Below the pieces are notes generated by a model. That model saw nothing but the letters and a program-made list of their open reading frames with translations, did not search any database and had not been told where the DNA came from. 64,000 nt of DNA, taken from NCBI RefSeq assembly GCF_027531815.1, contig NZ_JAPZSK010000006.1:62001-126000 (forward strand), read 5' to 3'. Origin of the DNA: Gemmatimonas sp. GTDB lineage: Bacteria; Gemmatimonadota; Gemmatimonadetes; Gemmatimonadales; Gemmatimonadaceae. Each line of letters opens with the position of its first letter. The first letter of the stretch is position 1. The position numbers and the translations under genes were made by a program. Positions 45,704-53,073 of this stretch are shown in pieces.

Positions 45704-47032
45704 TCAGGGGGACGCGGGGCCGAGTTGGCCCCGGATCTCGCCGGCGGGGAACTGTGACGAGTGCACGTTCACATACCCCTGCCCATTCCGAAGAATGGTG
45801 GACAGCGAATCGAGCGAAATGGGCGGCTGCCCGGCGATACCGCGAATGTCCGTGGCCGAGAACGACCCAGTGAGTACGCCGCTGGTGCCCGTGAGCGGGG
45901 TGCGCATAAGATCGACGATGATCCCCGCGGTGCCATTGGGGCCCGCCGGCGCGTGGATGTGCATACCGGTGGGATTGCTGGCGATGCCCTGATAGGTGAC
46001 GACGTAGGTCATCGTGCTCCCGCTGCGCGTGAACACGGCGGCACCGTTGGCCATGGTGTTCACGGCATTGGGCCGCTCGTTGGCCCCATTCATCTGCGTA
46101 AAGAGCGCACTCGCCACGACGTTCACGGTTCCCGTCATGCCGGCATGCAGGGTGCAGGCGTATGGGTAGCTGCCGATCGTTTCGAAGACGCGCTGTGCCG
46201 AGGATCCCGAAGTCACGCCGATGTTGGTGGGTGCCCCACTCGACTGGAACACCACGTTGTGGCCGATACCGCCGAAGGTCCACGTGACCGTTCCGCCCTG
46301 CGCCACGTTGATCGTGGGCGGCGTAAAGAGGTTGGCGTCGGTGGCCTGTACCGCTGCGGAAGCGGCCGCTGCCACGGGCGCGGTGACCGTGATGTTCGTC
46401 GTGGCGGTCGCGGTCGTCGCGTCGCGCGTGAGCGACGTGGTGATGACTGCAGTACCTGGCGCCACGGCGGTGAGCACCCCTGTGGGACTCACCAGCACTT
46501 TCGTTCGATCACTGGTGGTGAACGTCGCGCCCGTGCTGCCACTCATCGGATTACCGCGTCCGTCGCGTGCCGTCACCGTCAGCGGACCGGTGGCCCCGAT
46601 GGCCATGCTGGAGGCGCCGACCGTGGCGGTGAGCTGCGCATAACGCTGGGCCACCTCCACGGCAATGGTGCTGCGCGCGGTGCCACTCGTGGCCGTGATG
46701 GTGGCGCTTCCGTTGCCGGCGGCCGTGACCGTGGCGGTAGTGCCGCTTCCGGACACCGTGGCGATGCTCGCGTCACTGGTGATCCAGGTGACCGAGCCCC
46801 CCGAAATACTGGCGCCGCGCGCATCAGTTACGGTAGCCGTAAGCGCGCGCGAATCTCCCACACTCACCAGCGGCCCGCTCGACGCCGCCGCGATGGTAAT
46901 GGTGGCGGCAACCGGCGCTGGCGACGTTCCGCCATCGGCGCCACCTCCGCACGCTGCCGCGAGGCTGACGAGGAGCACGGCGCCGATCCGCACGGCGCGG
47001 ATCCATACGGCCTGCATAGCTGGTAACGACAT
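45704..47032 (-). CDS. Lipoprotein with Ig-like, cupredoxin and CHRD domains
   Basis: 442 aa. The lipobox LAAAC places Cys28 at the mature end. Two Big_2-like Ig domains follow (~42-128 and ~132-216; motifs TSDASIATVSGSGTTATVTA and TSDRTKVLVSPTGVLTAV). Residues ~222-306 are a plastocyanin-like domain with type-1 copper ligands His258 (GIGHNV), Cys293, His296 and Met299 (YACTLHAGM). Residues ~307-438 are a CHRD domain (GMHIHAPAGPNGTAG and YVNVHSSQFPAGEIRGQL). It should sit in the envelope and bind copper. It lies downstream of the sigma/porin/cupredoxin/pseudokinase cluster on the same strand, after a hairpin. Confidence 0.88.
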   Translation of the reverse strand: MSLPAMQAVWIRAVRIGAVLLVSLAAACGGGADGGTSPAPVAATITIAAASSGPLVSVGDSRALTATVTDARGASISGGSVTWITSDASIATVSGSGTTATVTAAGNGSATITATSGTARSTIAVEVAQRYAQLTATVGASSMAIGATGPLTVTARDGRGNPMSGSTGATFTTSDRTKVLVSPTGVLTAVAPGTAVITTSLTRDATTATATTNITVTAPVAAAASAAVQATDANLFTPPTINVAQGGTVTWTFGGIGHNVVFQSSGAPTNIGVTSGSSAQRVFETIGSYPYACTLHAGMTGTVNVVASALFTQMNGANERPNAVNTMANGAAVFTRSGSTMTYVVTYQGIASNPTGMHIHAPAGPNGTAGIIVDLMRTPLTGTSGVLTGSFSATDIRGIAGQPPISLDSLSTILRNGQGYVNVHSSQFPAGEIRGQLGPASP

Positions 47033-47096
47033 TCCGATCTCTCCGGGTGAGTGGAAGCATGACGCGCGTCGCGTCGAACCGGATGGCAGACGGAAT

Positions 47097-47123
47097 GGGC
47101 CCGCACACTATTCCCGCGGGCCC
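47097..47123 (-). terminator. Hairpin after the pseudokinase gene
   Basis: An 8-bp perfect stem (GGGCCCGC/GCGGGCCC) with an 11-nt loop starts 2 bp after the TAA stop at 47126. There is no U-tract, so it may slow transcription or stabilise mRNA rather than terminate fully. Confidence 0.45.
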
Positions 47124-47125
47124 GG

Positions 47126-49303
47126 TTATCGGAGCACTCCCGACAGGTGGCCCACCCTCACCCAGGCGGCGAGGGCCTCGGTGGCTACCCCGAGGCGGCG
47201 ATCGGGATCGGGGTGAATCATGTACTGAACGAGCGACAGCAATTCCGACGGACGGGGCGCTGCGCCGGGCGTGCGCACGGGCAGTGGCGACCGCTCCGAC
47301 CGCCGCGACTCGGACACCGGTTCGTGCTCGCTCGCCATCGACGCCGCGGCCCGCGGGGTCAGCGAACCCAGCTTGCTCCCCAGCACCTCGATCGGCGACC
47401 GCGAGCCGAACGGCGTGGTCCCGATGAGACACTCGTGCAAGACGACGCCGATCGAGTAGAGATCGGCCTTGGCGCTGGGCATGCCACCGATCAACAGCTC
47501 CGGTGCCATGTACTCCGGCGCACCGACTCGCCCGCCGGTGATGGCGGGAGCCGTGTCGCTTCCCGCGGCCTCTCGCGCTTGGCGACGGGCGCGACGGGTG
47601 ATCCCGTAGTCACCGAGCTTGACCACGCCAGCGCGCGACAGCAGCACGCTGCGGGTCGTGATGTTCGCATGCGTGATGTCGTGCGCATGCAACGCGGCCA
47701 CCCCACGCAGCATGGCGCGCGCGATGGCGGCGACAGCACACGTGTCGAGCGCCCCACGCAGCTGCAGGAGATCGGCCAGCGATAGACCGTCCACGAATTC
47801 GACACTCACGAATCGCACGCCGTCGGCCTCGCCGACGTCGAGGGTCTGCACCAGATGTCGGTGAACCACGGCAGGTCGTGGCGGGGCGACCATGTCGCCC
47901 CGCGGCGATGCCGCCGTGCCCTCGGCCGCGGAAGGCTCCGTCGGGAGCAGACGGAGCGCCACCACCTGGCCACGGGCCGTGTCTCGGGCACGAAAGCTGA
48001 TGCCCAGTTCACCGCGGCCAAGTTCCTCGTCGAGGCGATAGCGCTGTGCGAACAACATCCCCGGCGCCCACGCCGTCGCGCGCGACGCCGTGGGGCGGAA
48101 CGCCAGTGTACGCGCCGTGGTGGCTCGCGGCTTCATGGTAAACTCGGCCCCAATCATGGGATGCGCCGCGAGGAGCGCTCGCACCGTATCCTGATCGTTC
48201 GATTCAACAACCAGGGAGTCGACCGCGTCGGCGAGCGCCGACAGTTCCGCGGAGCCATACAATGCGCCCGTTGGCGTACTGCCCAGCGGGTTGGCCGGTG
48301 CCCCACCCTGCTCCACGACGTGACGCACCAGTTGCGTCATGGCCGCGACAGGATGTACCACCGCTCGCGATGTCAGCCGTGCGGCGATCAGGGCGCCGAG
48401 CAGGCCGAGGATCGCGGCGAGCAGCAGCGAGCGACGTACGGGCTCCAGACTGACGAGTGCGTCGTCGGCGAGCCGCAAAACCACATACCCGCCGACGGGC
48501 GTTCCACCGGCAGTCGCGAGCGTGCTGCGATGCAGCATCCATGTGCGACCGTCGAACTCGACCTCCTGATGCGCACGGCCTGCCGCGGGCGCCGTGGGGG
48601 AGACCGCCTGCACTACGGCACGGCGGAGTGCGGTGTCGCTGGCCAGACTTGTCGCGGCCATGCGCTTGCGCCCCTCGGCATCGAGCACGAAGAAGAGCAC
48701 CGCCTGATTGGTCGCCAGCGCGATATCGGCCGCGGCGAGACTGTCGAGGACACGCGTGGCGACGAGCACACCGAACGGCATGCCACCGGGCGCGGCGATG
48801 GGGACGGCGGTGGCCTGGAACAGCACCGAGTCGCCCGAGCCGCCGAACCCAGTCGTGACCTGCCCTCGCAGCGCCCCCGATACCAACGGCACGCGGGCCA
48901 TGGGCTCACCGAACGCCGACGGCTCGTCCGACTTGGCGATCAGGTTGCCGTTGTCGTCGGTGATGAACACCCACGAGGCCTCGAGCTGTTCAGCGGCTTC
49001 GAAGGTCTGGTCGAGGATGTCGTCACGGCGGCGCTCGGCGACGAGCGTCCGGAAGTACGGTCCCTGCACGAACACCCGCGCCCCGCCACCGAGGCTCCGG
49101 CCCCGCCCCGCCAGCAATTGTGCCACGAGATCGGCCGACTGCTCGAGCGATTGCCGCGCCGCGTTGCGCGCCGCCCGACGCGCCCCGACGGTCCCCAAGG
49201 CGAGCACCATCGCCAACAGGAGCAACACCAGCGCCGCGGTTCCGGTGAACACGCGCCACGACAGCCGATGCCACGCCCTCGGCGCAGCGCTCCGGGCGGA
49301 CAC
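47126..49303 (-). CDS. Transmembrane sensor fused to a Ser/Thr pseudokinase domain
   Basis: 725 aa. Membrane helix ~19-40, extracytoplasmic domain ~41-290 (Cache-like: SWVFITDDNGNLIAKSDE and VLFQATAVPIAAPGG), helix ~292-310, a HAMP-like stretch (SRAVVHPVAAMTQLVRHVV), a linker, then a protein-kinase fold from ~421. Catalytic residues are lost: the ATP-anchoring Lys is Arg451 (VVALRLL), the HRD motif is HAN (545-547, Asp replaced by Asn) and the catalytic-loop Asn is Ser552. The DFG aspartate survives as DYG (565-567), and APEYMAPELL and the ADLYSIGVVLHE helix are intact. The start is 3 bp after the cupredoxin gene stop. It likely senses an envelope signal and works by binding, not by phosphorylation. 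Confidence 0.88.
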   Translation of the reverse strand: MSARSAAPRAWHRLSWRVFTGTAALVLLLLAMVLALGTVGARRAARNAARQSLEQSADLVAQLLAGRGRSLGGGARVFVQGPYFRTLVAERRRDDILDQTFEAAEQLEASWVFITDDNGNLIAKSDEPSAFGEPMARVPLVSGALRGQVTTGFGGSGDSVLFQATAVPIAAPGGMPFGVLVATRVLDSLAAADIALATNQAVLFFVLDAEGRKRMAATSLASDTALRRAVVQAVSPTAPAAGRAHQEVEFDGRTWMLHRSTLATAGGTPVGGYVVLRLADDALVSLEPVRRSLLLAAILGLLGALIAARLTSRAVVHPVAAMTQLVRHVVEQGGAPANPLGSTPTGALYGSAELSALADAVDSLVVESNDQDTVRALLAAHPMIGAEFTMKPRATTARTLAFRPTASRATAWAPGMLFAQRYRLDEELGRGELGISFRARDTARGQVVALRLLPTEPSAAEGTAASPRGDMVAPPRPAVVHRHLVQTLDVGEADGVRFVSVEFVDGLSLADLLQLRGALDTCAVAAIARAMLRGVAALHAHDITHANITTRSVLLSRAGVVKLGDYGITRRARRQAREAAGSDTAPAITGGRVGAPEYMAPELLIGGMPSAKADLYSIGVVLHECLIGTTPFGSRSPIEVLGSKLGSLTPRAAASMASEHEPVSESRRSERSPLPVRTPGAAPRPSELLSLVQYMIHPDPDRRLGVATEALAAWVRVGHLSGVLR

Positions 49304-49306
49304 CGT

Positions 49307-50005
49307 TCAGTACCGGTCGGCGCGCGTTGCCGCGTACGGCTGGCCGAACTTGTTGCTGTGCGCCTTGGCAACGTAGCCCCGCGCATCGAGCGCGAGCGTG
49401 AGCGCGAGATCCTCAGTGGTCACCCGGATGGTTTCGATGTGCTCCGCCGCGCGCTCATGCCACACGCGCAACGTCCACGTACCGGCCGGTACGTTGGCAA
49501 TCTCGAACGTGCCGTTCGTCCGGACGCGCGTAACGTACGGCGTACGGACTGCCACCACGTAGTTCGCCATGCGCGCGTGGATGTTGCAATAGACGGCGTA
49601 CACACCGGGCGCGCTGAACGTGGCCGAGCGTGTCTTTCCCGACCGATACAGGCCGAGATCGAAGGCCCCGAGCGACGAGTTCGAGAACACGTTATGGCTG
49701 AATGGATCCTGATTGGGATACGCCACACTGCCGCCCACGCCGATGATCTGCACATGTGGTTCGAACTCACGCAGGCGCATACCGACGGTCGCCTTGTCGA
49801 GCCACGAGGGGCGCTTGGCGCCCCCCGCGTCACCGTCGAGCGATATGATGACGTCGGTCAGCAAAGCGGACGGCGCCCCAGCCCGCTCTATCAACCGCAC
49901 CTGTCCGCGTACGTGTCCCTGGGCACGGGCGGGCTGGGTGCAGAGCGCCGCGCAGGAGAGCACCAGCAGCATGCGGGCACATCGCCCGTGGGCGAGCGTT
50001 CGCAT
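49307..50005 (-). CDS. Secreted cupredoxin (plastocyanin-like, methylamine-utilisation-type)
   Basis: 232 aa. A signal peptide (ARMLLVLSCAALCTQPARA) is followed by a beta-sandwich with a complete type-1 copper site: His104 (DPFSHNVFS), Cys140, His143 and Met146 (VYCNIHARM). The C-terminal part (NGTFEIANVPAGTWTLRVWHE) resembles a carboxypeptidase-regulatory-like fold. The ATG overlaps the porin-like gene stop by one base (TGATG), and the pseudokinase gene starts 3 bp after it, so the three are probably made together. It may be the copper- or redox-loaded partner of the sensor. Confidence 0.9.
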   Translation of the reverse strand: MRTLAHGRCARMLLVLSCAALCTQPARAQGHVRGQVRLIERAGAPSALLTDVIISLDGDAGGAKRPSWLDKATVGMRLREFEPHVQIIGVGGSVAYPNQDPFSHNVFSNSSLGAFDLGLYRSGKTRSATFSAPGVYAVYCNIHARMANYVVAVRTPYVTRVRTNGTFEIANVPAGTWTLRVWHERAAEHIETIRVTTEDLALTLALDARGYVAKAHSNKFGQPYAATRADRY

Positions 50006-51369
50006 CAGAGATCCACGCCCACCGACAGATTCCAATGACTCGCGCGCCACAGCCCGTCGGGATATCGGGTACGAAATCCTCGATATTCCACGCTCAGAAA
50101 CACGGGCATCGCCGGCCGCCACGTCGTATGTACGGCACAGACACCATTGCGCCGACGATCGGCGCTGCCGCCGTGCACGCGATCGGTGCCGCATCCCACG
50201 CCGTGCACCAGCACGGGGTGCCACTGCGTGTTGAGTTGCAGCCAGCCCGCGGTGTTGGTCAACGGGGGCCCAAACTCGTTGCCGGGCACACTGCGCGTCC
50301 CGAAGTTCTGGCCGATCCCACCGCCGCCAAGCCCACGGAGCATCGCTCCGCGATACACCTCGCCGCGCAGTTCGAGACCGTGCCCCAGGGCCGCGTGAAG
50401 GTCGGCGGTTACCGCCCAACTGCGACGGTTAACGCCGGGCACCGACTGCAGCCATGCCGAATGCGTCCCGAGTCCCACCTCGAGGCCCGACGTCCACACG
50501 CCCTGCGCGGCACGGTCGTCGAGGTCGTGCCCACGCCGGAGACGCACGCGCGACTGGAGTGCCGGGCGTCCGCTGGCCTGACCGATGTCAGTGGGGACCG
50601 TGTTGCTGAGCGGTCGCTCGGAGGCATTGGGGGACAGTATCGCGCCCTGAGCCGCCACCGCCCACTCCCCGCGCGTCACCAGCGTGCGCGTGAGCCGAAA
50701 CTGGGGCAACCAGTTCCAGAGGTTCCCCGCCGCCGCGAACACCGGAATGGCCACCCCGGCCACGCTGATGGGATTGAGGTCCGAGACGAGCGGCGTCTCC
50801 ATGCCCACCATTACCTCAGCGCGCGGCCACACGAGAAACACCCGTGCGGTGCGCAGCCGCGGCTCGGGAAAGAGCGGTGGCGTGGCGTCGAGCGCGCGCG
50901 CGAAGAAGTCGAGTTCGAAGTCGGCCAGCAGCGTGGCGCCGGCGACACTGTCCATACTCGCACTGCCCCCCAGCAGGGCCTGCCGCATCGTCATACTGAA
51001 CACCGACGGGCGCGCGGCCGTCGCGGCAGCGCCACGTACGGGCGCGGCGAACACGGGTACTTCGGCAGCGGACACCGCTCCCCGCGTCACGGCGCTGTTC
51101 ACCACCACACGGGCAGAGAGATCCAGTTGAATTCGCGACCGCAAGCGCACACTGCTGGCCGATTCGGTCGCGATCTGCTGTCGCAGCAGCGTTAGCGCCG
51201 AATCGGTGCGGGCGAGTCGCGCCGCGAGAGAATCGAGTGTGACCGACGATTCCCGGGACACGGTGTCGCGCTGTTGCGCGCCGGCACCCGTCGCGCTCGC
51301 AAGCCAGAGCACGGCGGTGAGGAGCCACCATGGGCACAGTCGACGCGAGGAAGTTGTGTGAGCAAGCAC
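50005..51369 (-). CDS. Predicted outer-membrane porin-like protein
   Basis: 454 aa. A signal peptide (WWLLTAVLWLASATGAGA) is followed by a short coiled-coil (SLAARLARTDSALTLLRQQI, ~45-70), as in trimeric porins of phosphate/sugar types, then many amphipathic strands ending SHWNLSVGVDL. The start is GTG at 51369. It overlaps the cupredoxin gene by one base. It would provide outer-membrane passage for a small solute. The ligand is unknown. Confidence 0.8.
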   Translation of the reverse strand: MLAHTTSSRRLCPWWLLTAVLWLASATGAGAQQRDTVSRESSVTLDSLAARLARTDSALTLLRQQIATESASSVRLRSRIQLDLSARVVVNSAVTRGAVSAAEVPVFAAPVRGAAATAARPSVFSMTMRQALLGGSASMDSVAGATLLADFELDFFARALDATPPLFPEPRLRTARVFLVWPRAEVMVGMETPLVSDLNPISVAGVAIPVFAAAGNLWNWLPQFRLTRTLVTRGEWAVAAQGAILSPNASERPLSNTVPTDIGQASGRPALQSRVRLRRGHDLDDRAAQGVWTSGLEVGLGTHSAWLQSVPGVNRRSWAVTADLHAALGHGLELRGEVYRGAMLRGLGGGGIGQNFGTRSVPGNEFGPPLTNTAGWLQLNTQWHPVLVHGVGCGTDRVHGGSADRRRNGVCAVHTTWRPAMPVFLSVEYRGFRTRYPDGLWRASHWNLSVGVDL

Positions 51370-51441: not shown

Positions 51442-52368
51442 TCATGGGCGGCGGACTCGCTCCGCGGTGCTGCTGGTCCCCACCCGCTCGCGTGCCGCTG
51501 ACGCCGTTTGGAATGCACGCAACTGGTCCACCGACGTGTTCCCGAGCAGCACCGTCGCGCCGCCTGGCGTGCGCCACAGCACCATGCTGAGAGCGTCCTC
51601 ACCCGTGAGGACCACGGGGGACCGTGCCAGCGCGGCACTCAACGATCCCGATCTCGCAAGCAGCGCTTCCGGGATCGTGAACTGCACCACCAGTCGGCCA
51701 TCGAAGCGATAGGCGAGCACGCCGAGCAGTTCCCCCCACGCAGTGGTCGTCCACGCTGCGGCGAGATCGAGCCCAGGCGACTCGAGCGGGAAGACCGGCC
51801 CCCCCAGCGCGCGCCGAATCGCATCCACGTCGCGCTCCCGCCCCGGCAGATTCTCCGGGGACAGCGCACGCCACTGCACGGCGAGCGAGTCGAGCAACGG
51901 GGCGTCGCCAACCACAGCAACGGGAACACCCTCGGCGCCCGTTTCCGCGGCGGTATGCGCCGGCAGCAGGACACGGCCCAGCCAGAGAGCCGCGATGAGT
52001 ACGACGACGGCCCCCCAGCCCCAGCGACCGAAACGCCAGCCTCGCGTCCCAGACAGCGCTGACTGCGGGGCGATTCCCGGCGCCGGCAGGGCGGCGATGG
52101 ACTGCCGAATACGTGTGTGGAGTGCGGCCGAGGCCAGCGGGCCACCGATCTGCCCCAGGCCGGCCGCGAGTTGGCGCTGCATCCCCACGTCTCTGGCGCA
52201 TCGGGCGCATTCACGCAGGTGCGCATCGAGTTGCGTCGCGGTCTCCGGCGGCAACTCCCCGTCGACATAGGCCGCCAACAACGAAGCGATAATGTCGTGC
52301 TGTTCGACCTCACGCCGCCAGTCGTGTGGCAGCCAGACGGATGCAGCCCCACTCGGAAACTCATTCAT
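51442..52368 (-). CDS. Zinc-binding anti-sigma factor
   Basis: 308 aa. The N-terminal ZAS/zf-HC2 motif has His24 and HLRECARC (His50, Cys54, Cys57), which binds the sigma factor. A single membrane helix (GAVVVLIAALWLGRVLLP, ~119-136) leads to a ~170-residue periplasmic domain. The ATG at 52368 overlaps the sigma factor stop (ATGA), the usual pair arrangement. The periplasmic half has no recognised sensor family. Confidence 0.93.
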   Translation of the reverse strand: MNEFPSGAASVWLPHDWRREVEQHDIIASLLAAYVDGELPPETATQLDAHLRECARCARDVGMQRQLAAGLGQIGGPLASAALHTRIRQSIAALPAPGIAPQSALSGTRGWRFGRWGWGAVVVLIAALWLGRVLLPAHTAAETGAEGVPVAVVGDAPLLDSLAVQWRALSPENLPGRERDVDAIRRALGGPVFPLESPGLDLAAAWTTTAWGELLGVLAYRFDGRLVVQFTIPEALLARSGSLSAALARSPVVLTGEDALSMVLWRTPGGATVLLGNTSVDQLRAFQTASAARERVGTSSTAERVRRP

Positions 52369-52973
52369 GACGACCTCGGCATGCGACGGACACCGGACTC
52401 CGGCTGCGGCCCCAGTGCCCACTCTCGTCCCCGTTCGGCGATCACCGCCGCGAGCAATCGTCGCCCGCGGGACATACGACTCATGATGGTGCCGATGGGT
52501 ACCCCCACGGTTTCCGCGATCTCGGCGTATGTGAACCCCTCGATGTCGTGCAATTCCACGGCGGTCGCGAAATCCTCCGGGATGGCGGCGAGCGCCGCCT
52601 GCAAGACTTCGCGATCGAGCCGGCCCACGATTTCGTCGAAGACCGAGTCGCTCGAACTGGCGACGAGTGTTTCGTGCACGTCGTCGAGCCGCGTAATGGG
52701 GAGCAGGCGGGCGCGACGGGTCTGACGCTCGATCGACTCGCTGAGCACCGAACGCAGGATCCGGTACAGCCAGGCGCGCACACTGCCGGGGTCGCGCAGC
52801 TCGTCAAATGCGGCCCACGCTTTCACGCAGGTGTCCTGTACCGCGTCCTCCGCATCCACCAGCGTGGCCGTCCGGCGTGCGGCAAACCCCAACAGACGAT
52901 CGAGATGCGGGAGTACGAGGGCCTCGTACTCCCGCTGGCGATCTTCGATGGAGGTAGGAACAGGCTTCGGCAT
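52365..52973 (-). CDS. ECF-family RNA polymerase sigma factor
   Basis: 202 aa. Region 2 is REYEALVLPHLDRLLGFA through DAEDAVQDTCVKAWAAF and the region 4 helix-turn-helix is FTYAEIAETVGVPIGTIMSRM. The ATG at 52973 gives the normal ECF length. It is paired with the anti-sigma factor and diverges from the M1 aminopeptidase gene across a 100-bp gap, so it may autoregulate and control either side. Its downstream genes suggest an envelope/copper-type stimulus. Confidence 0.95.
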   Translation of the reverse strand: MPKPVPTSIEDRQREYEALVLPHLDRLLGFAARRTATLVDAEDAVQDTCVKAWAAFDELRDPGSVRAWLYRILRSVLSESIERQTRRARLLPITRLDDVHETLVASSSDSVFDEIVGRLDREVLQAALAAIPEDFATAVELHDIEGFTYAEIAETVGVPIGTIMSRMSRGRRLLAAVIAERGREWALGPQPESGVRRMPRSS

Positions 52974-53073
52974 GCGGAAGGAGAGGGGGCGACGGGCGAA
53001 GGTATTCCCGGAGCCGGCCGGCAGCGAGCCTCGCGACTTTACACCAGCTGGCCGGCCGCCGCACTTTGGGCCC

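Follow-up and report, generated by a model that had tools for sequence, protein, structure and literature searches.

A Cache sensor with a predicted pseudokinase output domain encoded in an ECF sigma/anti-sigma operon of Gemmatimonadales

Bacterial pseudokinases are already a known kind of protein, defined by the loss of at least one of the beta3 Lys, the HRD Asp and the DFG Asp (PMC12599244). In terms of residues, the closest described group is the actinobacterial ActPs2, in which changes of the beta3 Lys to Arg and of the HRD Asp to Asn are conserved, as in the sensor reported here; its members carry the transmembrane (TM) segment C-terminal to the kinase, have large insertions and mostly lack the DFG motif, and no dCache sensor or ECF operon has been reported for them, unlike the system described below (PMC12599244). 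MviN/ActPs3 and EssB/YukC are membrane proteins whose kinase fold acts by binding, as we propose for this sensor, but they serve in peptidoglycan synthesis and type VII secretion and are not Cache receptors (PMC12599244). In terms of gene context, the pairing of genes for a Ser/Thr kinase and an ECF sigma factor is known from PknT-EcfP (ECF43) and PknS-EcfK (PMC8999054, PMC13147305). Those kinases are active and phosphorylate the sigma factor, which in ECF43 lacks the DAED motif, whereas the present system has an intact DAED, an anti-sigma factor and a degraded kinase. Mycobacterial PknB offers a kinase input to a zinc anti-sigma/ECF sigma pair via the phosphorylated anti-sigma factor, a control that depends on phosphorylation and involves no pseudokinase, unlike the system studied here (PMC8999054). 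Cache receptors with Ser/Thr-kinase outputs are themselves rare, amounting to one of 883 dCache_3 and 25 of 15,569 dCache_1 proteins in a 2016 survey (PMC4822843). In the open-access literature, we found no Cache-pseudokinase receptor, none tied to an ECF pair and no pseudokinase acting on an anti-sigma factor.

Here, we analysed a stretch of 64,000 nucleotides (the window) from a genome of 4.3 Mb whose nearest relatives are Gemmatimonas-type MAGs. The sensor gene is the last of an operon in the order ECF sigma factor, membrane anti-sigma factor, porin-like protein, cupredoxin-like protein and sensor, which was examined in 21 copies including that of the window. The features are as follows.

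45704..47032, minus strand: Ig-like - cupredoxin - CHRD protein, 442 aa, predicted regulon member (Pfam; promoter)
47089..47115, minus strand: second site of the ECF-type promoter, after the sensor stop and ahead of the CHRD gene (motif match)
47126..49303, minus strand: sensor pseudokinase gene, 725 aa (ORF and translation, Pfam)
47171..48043, minus strand: kinase-fold domain, residues 421-711 (Pfam E 1.8e-32; Z 26 to PknA 4ow8)
47636..47677, minus strand: decayed catalytic loop ITHANITTRSVLLS, residues 543-556, with Asp changed to Asn547, Lys to Thr549 and Asn to Ser552 (alignment)
47846..47944, minus strand: alphaC region, residues 454-486, with Glu changed to Val; helix absent from the prediction
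47951..47953, minus strand: Arg451 replacing the VAIK Lys (44-sequence alignment)
48491..49162, minus strand: dCache_3 extracytoplasmic domain, residues 48-271 (Pfam E 5.3e-14; AlphaFold2 model)
49307..50005, minus strand: cupredoxin-like exported protein, 232 aa (weak Pfam Copper-bind match; homologue alignment)
50005..51369, minus strand: porin-like outer-membrane protein, 454 aa (class inferred from sequence; conserved in the operon)
51442..52365, minus strand: anti-sigma factor (Pfam zf-HC2 1.1e-10; TM helix read from sequence only)
52365..52973, minus strand: ECF sigma factor, start placed at the ATG at 52973 (Pfam Sigma70_r2/r4_2; promoter alignment)
52983..53009, minus strand: ECF-type promoter GGGAATA-N16-CCTC before the sigma gene (conserved across loci)

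The sensor reading frame starts with GTG, and its coordinates were verified. In the encoded protein, a dCache_3 domain lies between two TM helices, and a HAMP-like linker joins the second of these to a C-terminal Ser/Thr-kinase fold. The dCache_3 match scores 52.8 bits against a Pfam cut-off of 25.7, which makes the protein a dCache_3 receptor, and the two flanking TM helices fall within predicted helices 12-79 and 287-332 of the AlphaFold2 model (37-sequence alignment, mean pLDDT 79.7). The Pkinase profile (PF00069) covers residues 422-711 with 113 bits (cut-off 31.7). In the model, the closest folds to this domain are M. tuberculosis PknA and PknB (Z 24-26), with Z 26.0 and 2.5 Å over 252 residues for PknA 4ow8; by both profile and fold, the domain belongs to the protein kinase superfamily.

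The catalytic site has decayed to a considerable extent. In an alignment of 44 sequences (the window copy and 43 relatives), VAIK reads VALR451 and HRDxKPxN reads HANITTRS, the HRD Arg being replaced by Ala. DFG reads DYG with Asp565 retained, and the Gly loop, APE and the F-helix Asp614 are also kept. Altogether, five catalytic or regulatory residues are gone and no alphaC helix is predicted: residues 453-486 are modelled as coil, with pLDDT mostly 40-60. As a control, a model of the intact orthologue L042 built on the same set of sequences does have alphaC (helix 485-498). The missing helix is thus not caused by the method alone, although the low local confidence makes it supporting evidence only. 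The changes are not due to chance, because the three other species of the same lineage also have Arg at the VAIK position and lack both the HRD Asp (G, R and C) and the catalytic Asn (R, R and T). Some kinases with such changes keep weak activity, such as ErbB3 (HRN). For the window sensor, the prediction from the alignment that the kinase domain is non-catalytic is well supported, and the domain presumably has no residual phosphotransfer activity. With Lys changed to Arg451 and Asp to Asn547, it is also a pseudokinase by the published definition (PMC12599244). The initial annotation, made from the window alone, had described a two-helix Cache-like sensor joined to a Ser/Thr-kinase fold, with Arg451, Asn547 and Ser552 as changed and the DFG Asp, APE and F-helix as kept residues; Pfam and the AlphaFold2 model agree with the former and the alignment with the latter. 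Its prediction of a pseudokinase was correct but understated, since the alphaC Glu (now Val) and the catalytic Lys (Thr549) are lost as well.

The pair of changes from Lys to Arg and from HRD Asp to Asn is that of ActPs2, although the sister copies have G, R or C in place of the Asp. The layout is different: the TM helices lie N-terminal to the kinase fold, and both the beta3-alphaC and the activation-loop insertions are absent. A tree built without Act2 kinases puts the domain among the dCache kinases of Gemmatimonadales, which gives no sign of a descent from Act2.

Relatives of the sensor are present in 81 of the 179 genomes of the family, part of them matching in the kinase domain alone, and further relatives were found elsewhere in the order Gemmatimonadales. 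The full-length relatives fall into two groups, one linked to the ECF genes and one lacking them. Loss of one or more of the catalytic residues (Lys, Asp, Asn and DFG Asp) was found in seven of the 21 copies of the ECF-linked clade, to which it is confined. No loss occurs in the ECF-less clade, where every complete copy has the K-D-K-N-D set (20 copies in the tree and 51 from a second collection, with some genomes overlapping between the two sets). A more distant myxococcal copy in the second collection has Ser at the position of the catalytic Lys. The record L088 (CALQGY020000026.1) bears the title Candidatus Kuenenia stuttgartiensis, yet it clusters with Gemmatimonas and is probably a mislabelled bin. 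The L044 sensor (G071) has one in-frame TGA within the match, perhaps marking an end that is truncated or frameshifted.

Catalytic residues have been lost independently at least three times. A tree of the sensor part without the kinase domain requires three loss changes (bootstrap range 3-4), which gave rise to lineage A (the window copy, L039, L040 and L041), lineage B (L047) and lineage C (L054 and L058). A single origin of all seven pseudokinases was rejected (p-AU 8e-47 for holding them together). The sister pair of lineage A, L042/L043, has the same operon with an intact kinase, and an active-looking sensor kinase was the ancestor of the window pseudokinase. Gain of the kinase domain by replacement is unsupported, as the kinase tree places the clade near L042/L043 just as the sensor tree does. 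The intact dCache_3-Ser/Thr kinase orthologues in Gemmatimonadales (such as L042, L045 and L062) have the same domain order at 30-52% identity, and those within ECF operons also have the gene order of the window; they retain the VAIK Lys, alphaC Glu, HRD/HGD Asp, catalytic Lys and Asn and DFG, unlike the window sensor.

Several expectations of the initial annotation can be judged from this distribution. The proposed look for conservation in orthologues had a clear outcome within lineage A, where Arg is invariant and the HRD Asp absent (replaced by N, G, R or C) in all four species. Orthologues in the same operon with intact Lys and HRD Asp, which had been named as evidence against a pseudokinase, do exist across the family (for example, L042/L043) but were found nowhere in the four-species lineage. 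The picture of a stand-alone design has to be given up, as such same-operon orthologues have Lys, HRD Asp and Asn intact. Nucleotide-dependent binding, offered as one way of relaying the signal, does not hold as a clade-wide trait: the DFG Asp survives in the window copy only and is I, I and E in its three closest relatives, while the Gly loop and the Arg451 region are largely kept across lineage A. Finally, the annotation left out the ECF sigma/anti-sigma operon, the likeliest output. As a separate observation, L052 (G054:C10) is borderline, since it keeps K, D and N but has lost the alphaC Glu and reads DAG for DFG, and its kinase branch is very long (1.30 vs 0.22 for dCache); it is perhaps a fourth catalytic loss in progress.

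The genes around the sensor are well conserved. The zf-HC2 anti-sigma gene adjoins the sigma gene in all ECF loci, which places the pair in the zinc anti-sigma/ECF class. The sigma2.2 motif DAEDAVQ is intact in the window sigma and in almost every one of the 21 sigma factors; the window sigma is hence not of the ECF43 type, whose sigma2.2 lacks DAED. The porin-like protein (50005..51369) has no Pfam match. In 28 homologues of the cupredoxin-like protein, the type-1 copper ligands H104, C140, H143 and M146 are invariant, and its gene lies upstream of the sensor in all relatives examined but one, itself truncated. The CHRD-cupredoxin gene often follows the sensor in the ECF group. In the ECF-less group, the porin gene is divergent and the cupredoxin-like gene precedes the sensor, without an ECF pair.

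A promoter of the form GGGAATA-N16-SSTC is strongly conserved shortly upstream of the sigma ATG in most ECF loci. Four exact matches were found genome-wide, namely before the sigma gene, before the CHRD gene and two in antisense, which were set aside as lying within long ORFs; the first two are the only non-coding exact matches of the genome. The second site also precedes the CHRD gene in L039-L043, with an equivalent position in L044 and L047. In the window alone and with one mismatch allowed, the two matches are no more than expected by chance, so the weight lies on the exact genome-wide count and the conservation across species. It is probable from these motifs that the operon's own sigma uses both promoters, and the predicted ECF regulon is very small, comprising the operon and the CHRD gene. 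The sigma factor, the anti-sigma factor and the promoters are all retained in the pseudokinase genomes; the circuit therefore seems to operate in them. In addition, at 52973-52986, about 10 bases separate the end of the -10 element from the sigma ATG, and the two lie close together in other loci as well, which suggests that the mRNA is leaderless.

Our preferred reading, to which we give a probability of roughly 0.55, is that the sensor signals by binding rather than by phosphorylation, the kinase fold being kept as a binding or allosteric output that probably acts on the anti-sigma/sigma pair. The ancestor would be an intact sensor Ser/Thr kinase whose gene joined an ECF sigma/anti-sigma operon. 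An envelope signal, perhaps brought by the porin-like and cupredoxin-like proteins, would alter the dimer state of the sensor; its kinase-fold domain would then control the anti-sigma/sigma pair through binding, and the freed sigma would drive transcription of the operon itself and of the CHRD-cupredoxin gene next to it. We infer the binding output, the partner and the nature of the signal; the pair is chosen as the target because, apart from the sensor, the operon has no cytoplasmic products but the sigma factor and the cytoplasmic part of the anti-sigma factor. In the intact orthologues, the kinase may affect the anti-sigma factor in the manner of mycobacterial PknB (PMC8999054), and the same interaction without phosphotransfer would be the simplest continuation for the window copy. 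Phosphorylation of the sigma factor of the EcfP kind is unlikely in the window system because its DAED motif is intact. On the other hand, the kinase is intact in most operon copies; this points to phosphorylation as the family's usual output and counts against a binding output. A Ser or Thr at residue 44 in the zinc domain of the anti-sigma factor is kept in 11 of 13 intact operons and in one of seven pseudokinase operons, the window protein having Thr. This coevolution with kinase loss is not above background, as several of the 581 columns do equally well or better, and S/T44 may be taken as a candidate phospho-site only as a lead.

Bacterial pseudokinases have hardly been studied, and most are only distantly related to an active ancestor. 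The main asset of this family is a natural series from intact to decayed kinases within one operon: with an active-looking sister and a pseudokinase sharing the same operon and promoter, and with three independent losses, catalysis-free receptor signalling becomes testable by domain swap. If the binding reading is true, it would add a phosphorylation-independent route to the control of ECF sigma factors. The broader idea, that the receptor family switched its kinase domain to such control of the sigma/anti-sigma pair convergently at least three times and left an active-to-pseudokinase series in one operon, is one that we put forward tentatively, as somewhat less likely than not.

Selection on the decayed domain bears on the leading alternative, in which the anti-sigma factor alone senses, the kinase output is dispensable and the domain is slowly decaying, kept for folding, membrane stability or sensor dimerisation. 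The decayed kinase domain remains under purifying selection, with dN/dS of about 0.3: 0.30 [0.20-0.43] for L039-L040, the safer value as synonymous distances are near 1 for window pairs, and 0.31 [0.21-0.44] for window-L039, compared with about 0.1 in the dCache domain and 0.04-0.24 in intact kinases. The upper bounds are well under 1 in both lobes, and the reading frames of all four lineage A copies are free of stops and frameshifts, all of which speaks against a dispensable domain; a degenerating pseudogene was rejected on these grounds. Constraint is lost locally and not throughout: invariant positions make up 15% of the alphaC region and 20% of the catalytic loop in lineage A (45% and 60% in intact orthologues) but 70% of beta1-beta3, including the Gly loop and Arg451 (45% in intact orthologues), the contrast between regions being what counts as the species sets are unequal in depth; the high share in beta1-beta3 likewise speaks against this alternative. 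In favour of the dispensable output, the catalytic and activation loops are nearly unconstrained, the sister species have lost the DFG Asp too, and the kinase evolves faster in the pseudokinase lineages. Constraint has shifted from the kinase to the sensor part, the ratio of kinase to dCache branch length (one topology) being 0.40 in ECF-less, 1.13 in intact ECF and 3.11 in pseudokinase copies. Measured against its own sensor, the pseudokinase domain changes at roughly three times the rate of intact kinases, which also fits an output losing importance. Taken together, we regard this alternative as rather unlikely.

Less probable again is an allosteric role, in which the sensor would form a heterodimer, as HER3 and STRAD do, with one of about 31 other kinases that then phosphorylates the anti-sigma factor or another target. 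The genome does have 32 Pkinase matches, and bacterial kinases are able to cross-phosphorylate (PMC4166321), but the genome holds no second dCache kinase of the sensor family (one match) and the loci have no conserved kinase neighbour. It is highly improbable that the domain is a weakly active or atypical kinase relying on Arg451 and the kept DFG Asp: the window copy has an intact Gly loop and DFG Asp, and ActPs2 proteins with the same Lys to Arg and Asp to Asn changes have been modelled to bind ATP (PMC12599244), but the HRD Asp, catalytic Lys, catalytic Asn and alphaC Glu are all lost, alphaC is not predicted, and the sister copies are without the DFG Asp as well.

Outside this family, cupredoxin-like proteins with the copper ligands were observed in several phyla beside a histidine kinase, an NtrC regulator or a Ser/Thr kinase (L148, L158, L160 and L161). 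In the Acidobacteria locus L148, the gene adjoins a dCache/HAMP histidine kinase and an NtrC-type regulator, and L158 also has a histidine kinase. It seems from these gene neighbourhoods that the output of a cupredoxin-sensor module has been exchanged over evolution, the homology between the sensor domains being weak.
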